Positions 16,622 through 18,224 of a DNA stretch of 64,000 nt are shown one piece after another (position 1 is the first letter of the stretch; every line of letters begins with the position of its first letter). The notes beneath the pieces were generated by a model. That model was given only the letters and a program-made list of their open reading frames with translations. It had not been told where the DNA came from and ran no database searches. The stretch lies in assembly GCA_030827315.1 (NCBI GenBank), contig JAURER010000011.1, forward strand, positions 1-64,000. The letters run 5' to 3'. This DNA is from Gemmatimonadota bacterium. Lineage in GTDB: Bacteria > Gemmatimonadota > Gemmatimonadetes > Longimicrobiales > Gaopeijiaceae. Made by a program: the position numbers and the translations under genes.

Positions 16622-16792
16622 TTAGCGCTCCTTCAGGGCCCGTTCGATCCGCACCAGGCGTTCCTCGATCTGCTGCAGCCGGTGCAGGATGATAACGTGC
16701 GTCTTCTTGGCGTCGATCCCCACCGGACTGTCCGCGCTCGCGATCTCTCCGGCGATGGCGTCGTAGACGTCCTTCGGCACTTCCATCGGCAT
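16622..16792 (-). CDS. Small coiled-coil hypothetical protein (56 aa)
   Basis: A 56-residue protein lying between the persulfide dioxygenase-rhodanese gene (4-nt gap) and the TauD-like gene (7-nt gap). The N-terminal half begins MPMEVPKDVYDAI and contains a conserved-looking GIDAKKTHVI segment. The C-terminal half (LQQIEERLVRIERALKER) has heptad-like hydrophobic spacing and should form an amphipathic helix or coiled coil, so oligomerisation or partner binding is likely. The next ATG (16786) has better spacing from an AGGA element and could be the true start. I do not recognise a named family. The tight spacing makes a role with its neighbours plausible. Confidence 0.6.
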   Translation of the reverse strand: MPMEVPKDVYDAIAGEIASADSPVGIDAKKTHVIILHRLQQIEERLVRIERALKER

Positions 16793-16796
16793 GGTC

Positions 16797-18224
16797 CTAG
16801 ATCGCGCACGCCTTTCCGGCGGCATCCACCCTCGGAAGCCCCGCGTGCTCCCAGGCCTCCATTCCCCCGGTGACGTTGTAAAGTTTCGCGTACCCCTCCC
16901 GCAGCAGGAGACCGATGGCCGTGCTGGAACGGTTGGCCGTCGCGCACGTCACCGCGATGCTCGCATCCTTCGGCAGCCCGAGCTCGTCGAAGCGCGGAGG
17001 CCTTCCCAGCTGCGGAGCCAGGTGCGTGTAGGGCATGACCAACGAGCCTTCGATGTGGCCCTCGTCCCACTCGTCCGTCTCGCGGACGTCGAGCACGCGC
17101 ATCCCGTTCGTGGAAAGCCGCTCGTGCAGCGTCCGGACGTCCATCTGGGGCGTCGTCTCGACGGGACGTCCCGAATCCATCCACGCGGTCAGCCCACCCT
17201 CGAGGAAGCCTGCGACGAACTGGTCCAGCCCGATGAAGCCCATGTTGTAGATGCATCGCTGGGCGTCGTCGTCCTTGTCCGTGAGCAGGATGATGGGTGC
17301 GTCGTCGGGAACCACCCAGCCCACGCGCTGCTCGAACTCAGAGCTGCTCATCTGCACGTTGATGGACCCCCGGATGTGCCCGCCGCCCCACGCCGCGGAC
17401 GAGCGCGCGTCGACGAGGTAGTGCCCGTCGTTCAGGAGCGTTTCGACGGCATCCGGGGTGAGGGGCTTCGCCTTCGGCCTGCCCAGCGTCAGCGCACGCC
17501 GTCCCTGATTCGTGGCGACGATGTTGAGGATGTTCGCCGGCTTGATCGGCTGGTCCTCGTCCATGTACGCCGTGAACCGATCTCGGTCCCTGATCTTCAG
17601 CGCGTCGTTGAAGCGCCGCTCGTACCCTACGCTTGTGACAACCTTGCCACTGGAGACGCGGCCTCAGGTGGAGCCGGCCAGATGGCCGGGATATACCTCC
17701 ACGTGGTCGGGAAGATCGAGGAATCGGGGGATGGCGACGTCGAAGAGCACCGGAGCGCCCTGCTCACCCTTCTGCGCGAGATCGGGCCGGGCCACGTCAC
17801 CCACCATCACGAAGTCGGCGGTGAGGATGAACCAGGGCTCGTCGCCGCGGGGGTAGTCGTAGACCAGGAGGTTGATCTGCTCAGGACGGTGCCCGGGCAC
17901 GTGGACGACCTCCATGCCGACGCCGCCCAAGCGGATCATGTCACCGTGCCGGACCCGGGTGGCCTCGTAGGTAACGTCGGCCAGCTCGGGAAGGATCAGC
18001 TCGGCGCCGGTGGCCTCCGCCAGAGGGCGGGCGCCCGAGATATGGTCCGCGTGACTGTGGGAGTCGATGACGTACCGGATCTTCGACTTCTGTTTCTTGG
18101 CCATCGCCAGATACGGCTCGATGTCCCAGAGAGGGTCGAAGACCGCGCACTCGTCGGTTCGCTGGCAGCCGATCATATAGGCTGCGCAGCCGGTCTCCTC
18201 ACGTATGATGGTTTCGAACCACAT
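16797..18224 (-). CDS. Persulfide dioxygenase-tandem rhodanese with in-frame UGA (candidate selenoprotein)
   Basis: Read through one UGA, this frame encodes a 475-residue CstB-like fusion for oxidising sulfide-derived persulfides. Residues 1-186 form a metallo-beta-lactamase/persulfide dioxygenase domain with SHSHADH (His56, His58, Asp60, His61), His112, Asp137 and His181, the usual non-haem iron set. UGA is codon 187 (17664-17666), directly after GHLAGST, where relatives have cysteine. The frame continues for 33 open codons with the family-like segment GYERRFN. It then runs into a rhodanese domain lacking a catalytic cysteine (about 256-355) and an active one with Cys427 in TCATANRSS (about 361-468). 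The downstream ATG at 17564 has no ribosome-binding site. The alternative is a nonsense-split pseudogene or a sequence error, giving pieces at 17664-18224 and 16797-17564. Confidence 0.75.
17635..17666 (-). promoter_or_regulatory. Candidate bacterial SECIS hairpin after the in-frame UGA
   Basis: Counting from the base after the UGA (17664-17666), nucleotides +14 to +19 (GUGGCA) pair with +24 to +29 (UGUCAC), including one G-U pair. They enclose an AGGU loop at +20 to +23 (plus-strand 17641-17644). An outer CGC/GCG pairing is possible below an internal loop. A small apical loop with G in its first two positions, about 16-37 nt after UGA, is what bacterial SECIS elements show. The loop also resembles the AGGU start of the E. 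coli fdhF loop as I recall it. A hairpin of this size can occur by chance in GC-rich coding DNA. Confidence 0.5.

Follow-up and report, generated by a model that had tools for sequence, protein, structure and literature searches.

A UGA codon inside a CstB-like gene is almost certainly read as selenocysteine (Sec): some 34 related genes, spread over at least three phyla, have kept both the codon and the hairpin that follows it. The gene lies in the window—by which we mean the whole stretch of 64,000 nucleotides analysed here, from a Gemmatimonadota bacterium—and its product is, on comparative grounds, very probably a selenoprotein CstB-type persulfide dioxygenase-sulfurtransferase, a single explanation that takes in recoding of UGA 187, oxidation at an iron site and transfer by a rhodanese domain. 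An earlier sequence-only reading had already proposed a Sec-containing persulfide dioxygenase, and that proposal gains strong support from the selenocysteine machinery of the host, the split between UGA and Cys codons among homologues, a conserved selenocysteine insertion (SECIS) hairpin, and low dN/dS. Here we describe the gene and its homologues, the probable function of the protein, and the evidence on how the UGA is read, and we close by setting the protein beside known systems.

The Gene and Its In-Frame UGA Codon

The gene, its UGA codon and the small open reading frame that follows are as listed:

16797..18224, minus strand: putative Sec-persulfide dioxygenase-rhodanese gene, 475 aa with U187; MBL-fold dioxygenase, degenerate rhodanese and rhodanese domains
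17664..17666, minus strand: UGA codon, residue 187, almost certainly read as selenocysteine; equivalent to CstB Cys201
16622..16792, minus strand: 56-aa ORF beginning 4 nt past the Sec gene stop; possibly co-translated

Translation of 16797-18224(-) gives a 475-aa frame with a single internal stop, a TGA within ...YPGHLAGST-U-GRVSSGK..., and so bears out the sequence-only reading, which had described a CstB-like frame broken once, by the UGA at 17664-17666. The same reading had the downstream frame open for 33 codons; it is indeed open, but it continues for 288 codons, to a TAG. The protein starts with MWFETI at 18224, and MWFE is kept in nearly all homologues. A Shine-Dalgarno-like sequence precedes the start in most of these, and all 27 homologues examined have the UGA at a spacing of 185-187 codons from the start. 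Relatives of the 56-aa ORF were sought beside other Sec genes, and none were found.

When the sequences are aligned, U187 pairs with a Cys both in 3TP9 and in 3R2U (S. aureus CstB). The Cys of 3R2U is chain residue 225; query residue 2 corresponds to chain residue 26, and the offset of 24 gives Cys201, the very position at which relatives had been said to carry their cysteine.

Homologues and Phylogeny

Three sources supplied homologues: one scan across 84,980 species genomes, a search among 59 relatives, and three sampled sets with 396, 392 and 396 genomes. The comparison set consists of 96 distinct proteins that cover the UGA position. Variation between UGA and Cys at codon 187, which had been suggested as a check, takes the form of a clean split: TGA stands there in all 34 distinct proteins with 49-100% identity, and TGC or TGT in all 62 with at most 42% identity. 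Among the 34 proteins of the Sec group, neither a reversion to Cys nor another stop codon was seen.

The Sec group forms a single branch in a quick tree (33 rows, SH-aLRT 99), and its members are found in Chloroflexota (mostly Anaerolineae), Acidobacteriota and Gemmatimonadota, and also in one bin (L076) that carries no phylum name. The Gemmatimonadota Sec genes, including that of the window, nest among Chloroflexota genes, which suggests that the Sec gene may have moved by horizontal transfer. Its distribution is patchy; in the family to which the window belongs, only four sampled genomes carry it (G000, G010, G013 and G024). Viral contigs scanned with a DNA pattern of UGA plus hairpin gave no match.

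Two other genes of the same family of bacteria are of interest in their own right. The window's genome (G000) carries a Cys-type CstB-like paralogue (G000:C67:26110-27504, 34% identity) without a stop, which provides a natural Sec/Cys pair in one genome. A gene on G031:C16 (34% identity, one TGA) was considered as a Sec member and rejected—its TGA is the ordinary end, and its loop has a Cys (SICGG). This locus (L160, G031:C16:19000-21200) encodes a short CstB-like protein comprising the dioxygenase part only, with HIAADY in place of the usual HxHxDH motif.

Domain Architecture and Proposed Function

Pfam places a metallo-beta-lactamase domain first and two rhodanese stretches after it. Among solved structures, 3TP9 and 3R2U come closest in sequence and cover nearly the whole length, and an AlphaFold model (pLDDT 87.8) matches 3TP9 over the full length with a TM of 0.84 (484 columns). 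The residues expected to form the active sites are as follows:

18042..18059, minus strand: HSHADH, residues 56-61, first metal-site motif; H56, H58 and D60 invariant; aligned to persulfide dioxygenases
17889..17891, minus strand: His112 (PGHRPE), expected iron ligand; invariant
17814..17816, minus strand: Asp137 (TADF), expected iron ligand; invariant
17682..17684, minus strand: His181 (YPGH), metal-site second-shell His, six residues before U187; invariant
16944..16946, minus strand: Cys427 (CATANRSS), C-terminal rhodanese active-site Cys; invariant; Pfam Rhodanese

Invariance of H56, H112, D137 and C427 was scored over 21 proteins; the iron-site residues and Cys427 are the same in every one, in agreement with the earlier statement that both halves of the frame keep intact active-site residues. 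A 2-His-1-carboxylate iron triad is described in PMC12856154. The position of the Cys in the GSxC loop of CstB (Cys201) is taken by U187.

We picture the following sequence of events. When the ribosome reaches UGA 187, SelB and Sec-tRNA(UCA) would bind the hairpin 19 nt downstream; selenocysteine would be inserted, and translation would carry on to the full-length protein. To judge by family membership, the N-terminal MBL-fold domain probably has a mononuclear Fe(II) site, presumed to consist of His56, His112 and Asp137, at which a persulfide, either protein-bound or of low molecular weight, is oxidised to sulfite, and the C-terminal rhodanese (Cys427) probably moves sulfane sulfur among persulfide, thiosulfate and sulfite. 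Persulfide oxidation is the likely reaction. Sec187 lies six residues past the metal-loop His181, at the CstB Cys201 site; most likely it either accepts or retains sulfane sulfur close to the iron site, in a selenenyl sulfide (Se-S), or recovers from over-oxidation more readily than Cys would. In another persulfide dioxygenase, surface cysteines are essential, yet a direct part in the reaction was thought unlikely and a protective or stabilising role was proposed (PMC6060420); catalytic and protective roles of Sec187 are therefore both possible. That Sec187 is catalytic, and that the protein belongs to a new selenoenzyme class—a persulfide dioxygenase with mononuclear iron that relies on an Se-S intermediate to ferry sulfane sulfur between its rhodanese Cys and the iron—is a tentative idea that we regard as rather less likely true than false. 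If true, it would make selenium an integral part of sulfide/thiosulfate oxidation in bacteria, and some hosts would combine this use with a selenoprotein-type sulfide:quinone oxidoreductase (SQR).

The gene neighbourhood speaks to the same question. In Anaerolineae the Sec gene commonly comes after a molybdopterin oxidoreductase of ~1,000 aa (12 loci, several of them cut by contig ends), and nearby are a TorD/nitrate-reductase-delta-like chaperone (11 loci), the two halves of a YeeE/YedE sulfur-transport system (8 and 7 loci), and NrfD (5 loci). The best NCBIfam scores of the molybdenum enzyme are to PhsA/DMSO-reductase-type models, below their cut-offs. These neighbours fit oxidation of sulfane sulfur to sulfite and then an SoeABC-like oxidation of sulfite, steps described in PMC9774590, with the molybdenum enzyme as the putative agent of the second; the Anaerolineae genes as a whole point to a pathway from sulfide/thiosulfate through persulfide and sulfite to sulfate. 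The sulfur-gene neighbourhood of Anaerolineae was not found in the window or in the Gemmatimonadota relatives L052 and L053, and the neighbours in the window are different ones: the 56-aa ORF, a TauD-like dioxygenase and katG.

Among the Anaerolineae loci, L054, L055, L057-L060, L065 and L078 have a conserved cluster, its parts varying by locus, of NrfD, molybdopterin oxidoreductase, Sec gene, YeeE/YedE halves, TorD-like chaperone and SulP transporter. At L066, a gene for an SQR-like flavoprotein (208-1401) lies 110 nt upstream of the Sec gene.

Selenocysteine could also be inserted into an enzyme that is not a persulfide dioxygenase and carries out some other redox reaction or S/Se transfer, with selenopersulfides or organoselenium among the conceivable substrates. 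Solved CstB-like proteins are only ~29-34% identical to it, and a host that has a Cys paralogue on C67 may keep the Sec form for a specialised purpose; we nonetheless consider this unlikely, as the expected Fe-site residues and the rhodanese Cys are invariant and the neighbours in Anaerolineae are those of sulfur oxidation.

The Predicted SECIS Hairpin

The element proposed to direct insertion follows the UGA closely:

17635..17650, minus strand: predicted SECIS hairpin GUGGCA-AGGU-UGUCAC, 6 bp, loop G at position 2, UGA-to-loop distance 19 nt

Judged by comparison, this hairpin has the geometry of a textbook bacterial SECIS. It starts 14 nt past the UGA, consists of a 6-bp stem and a 4-nt loop (AGGU) with G at loop position 2, and is present in this form or a close variant in all 34 Sec-group members. 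The published bSECIS model (PMC13188914) describes a stem of 4-16 bp and a loop of 3-9 nt, 16-37 nt after the UGA, with a G within the first two loop positions and an energy of at most -7.5 kcal/mol. In stem, loop, loop G and distance the hairpin falls within these ranges; its energy on its own is -6.8 kcal/mol, short of the limit, and reaches -11.3 to -17 kcal/mol with flanks (40-50 nt), the hairpin being present in the folded structure of those stretches. The isolated hairpin of L072 has an energy of -9.0 kcal/mol.

Taken alone, the window sequence gives a 59-nt fold no better than shuffles (z = 0.46), and a stem of such length in such geometry arises in 3.9% of synonymous resamplings. Since the single-sequence signal is weak, the case for a SECIS rests on comparison. 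The stem pairs in 24 of 24 distinct aligned sequences (100% of cells), as well as which only one of 500 shuffles does. Covariation was uninformative in the first 27 sequences, where five of the six pairs are invariant; compensatory changes came from more distant Sec-group members, and two stem pairs are now seen changed on both sides, one as G-U, G-C, A-U and C-G and the other as U-A and C-G. L113 (AGCGCCAAGUUUGGCGC) has two fully compensatory stem changes. Third codon positions are fixed across the hairpin, even where synonymous codons would be available, and synonymous difference there is the minimum of the gene (0.137 versus a median of 0.756 in 7-codon windows, 471 windows). No Cys gene matches the hairpin pattern.

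The constraint on the hairpin bears on whether the UGA mainly terminates translation, ending a stand-alone dioxygenase protein while the downstream part is produced on its own or through a low level of read-through. Even E. coli recodes UGA incompletely (30-40% in vivo; PMC4513850), and some termination would be in keeping with this. As the main fate of the codon, however, it is very improbable: a constrained hairpin right after the UGA fits Sec insertion, other family members have Cys at this place and never a stop, and the downstream ATG at 17564, said earlier to have no ribosome-binding site, shows no visible Shine-Dalgarno sequence.

Selection on the Protein Past the UGA

Compared with the closest relatives, dN/dS is 0.05-0.07 before the UGA and ~0.13 after it—far below 1 on both sides. 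The value after the UGA indicates that the downstream half is constrained at the protein level. General decay of the gene among homologues, which the sequence-only reading had said would refute it, is not found.

That reading had named a nonsense mutation, or an error turning TGC or TGT into TGA, as the main alternative, in which case the gene would simply be broken in the window's genome. Such an event would leave one TGA, a single base change away from TGC or TGT, in a frame with nothing else unusual, as is seen; the comparative data, however, refute it and reduce its probability to almost nothing. This TGA is shared by 34 distinct sequences, which were assembled independently and come from at least three phyla; an assembly or sequencing error is thereby excluded in practice. 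Purifying selection past the UGA and the conserved hairpin tell against a broken gene as well.

Selenocysteine Machinery in the Host

The window's genome (G000) is a draft of 3.07 Mb in 99 contigs, 98% complete with 1.7% contamination. Selenocysteine insertion by the host had been offered as something the genome could confirm or deny, and the complete set of selA, selB, selC and selD is present: selA at 518.5 bits, above the cut-off; selB at 344.7 bits, in a frame including neighbours; selD at 386.6 bits; and tRNA-Sec (selC) at 68.8 bits, with anticodon TCA. The selD gene (L010, G000:C99:22175-23098) has an in-frame TGA of its own in the catalytic loop (HGAGUACKLGM), so the Sec gene is accompanied in G000 by at least one more gene for a selenoprotein, this one of a familiar type.

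Of 26 other genomes that carry the UGA gene, 7 gave no selB match above the cut-off; two of the seven show selB fragments at contig ends, and the remainder may be incomplete metagenome-assembled genomes. As selB is also frequent in relatives without the UGA gene, co-occurrence of the two is by itself weak evidence. Reassignment of UGA as a sense codon (e.g., Trp or Gly) would let a conserved protein continue in frame past the UGA, but it can be all but dismissed because several members end at a genuine terminal TGA (L052, L060, L062, L065, L066, L069, L073, L075 and L076), so that the code is not reassigned, and because the hosts have Sec machinery and the family residue at this position is Cys, not Trp or Gly.

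Comparison with Known Systems

In kind, the protein belongs to a known enzyme family, of which it is the selenocysteine version; as a selenoprotein persulfide dioxygenase family it is probably new. A 2026 inventory of 119 prokaryotic selenoprotein families contains no metallo-beta-lactamase or persulfide-dioxygenase selenoprotein, and a full-text literature search, which covered few subscription papers, found no report of a Sec persulfide dioxygenase. No model of any kind in NCBIfam release 20.0 fits the protein, and none of its selenoprotein models scores above the cut-off (the best are NF041203, 36.1 against 115, and NF045694, 28.7 against 805).

Rhodanese-containing selenoproteins (forms 1-5, TsoB NF045694, NF041203) have a rhodanese domain in common with the Sec protein. 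They list Sec under UxxS, UxxG, CxU and UxxxxU motifs, whereas in the Sec protein the rhodanese keeps its Cys and the Sec sits in a loop of the dioxygenase domain (GSTUGRV). The UxxV motif string of selenoprotein TsoY (NF047643) also fits UGRV, but the NCBIfam scan of the Sec protein gave no NF047643 match. A type III SQR selenoprotein subtype (NF049943) is a reported Sec enzyme of a neighbouring step of sulfide oxidation; it is a flavoprotein, unrelated in sequence to the Sec protein. Nine of the 26 genomes with the UGA gene (G062, G063, G064, G066, G068, G072, G073, G076 and G082) have an NF049943 match above the cut-off, and in none of them does an in-frame stop break the part that matches. 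Use of this SQR by the window's host was considered and rejected, as G000 has no match.

Persulfide dioxygenases of the ETHE1/Blh type share the metallo-beta-lactamase-fold dioxygenase domain; however, one that was aligned (4YSB) has no GSxCG loop, and their rhodanese arrangement is different or absent. Against the NCBIfam Blh model NF040641 (bifunctional ST/SDO), the Sec protein scores 41.7, below the cut-off of 625.

The nearest likeness is to S. aureus CstB (3R2U) and Alicyclobacillus 3TP9, which have the same PDO-pseudorhodanese-rhodanese architecture and fold, the same metal-site motifs and rhodanese Cys, and the GHxAGSxCG loop; they differ in the loop residue, Cys where the Sec protein has Sec, and in overall sequence (29-34% identity). 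With the Sec protein, the selenoproteins gain a family that departs from the usual thioredoxin-fold pattern and that belongs to persulfide oxidation, a pathway in which the chemistries of sulfur and selenium come together. Current annotation likely splits or truncates such genes in many genomes. With conservation across phyla, and with Cys relatives in the same families and in the same genome, these genes offer a natural Sec/Cys test of the role of the CstB loop Cys.
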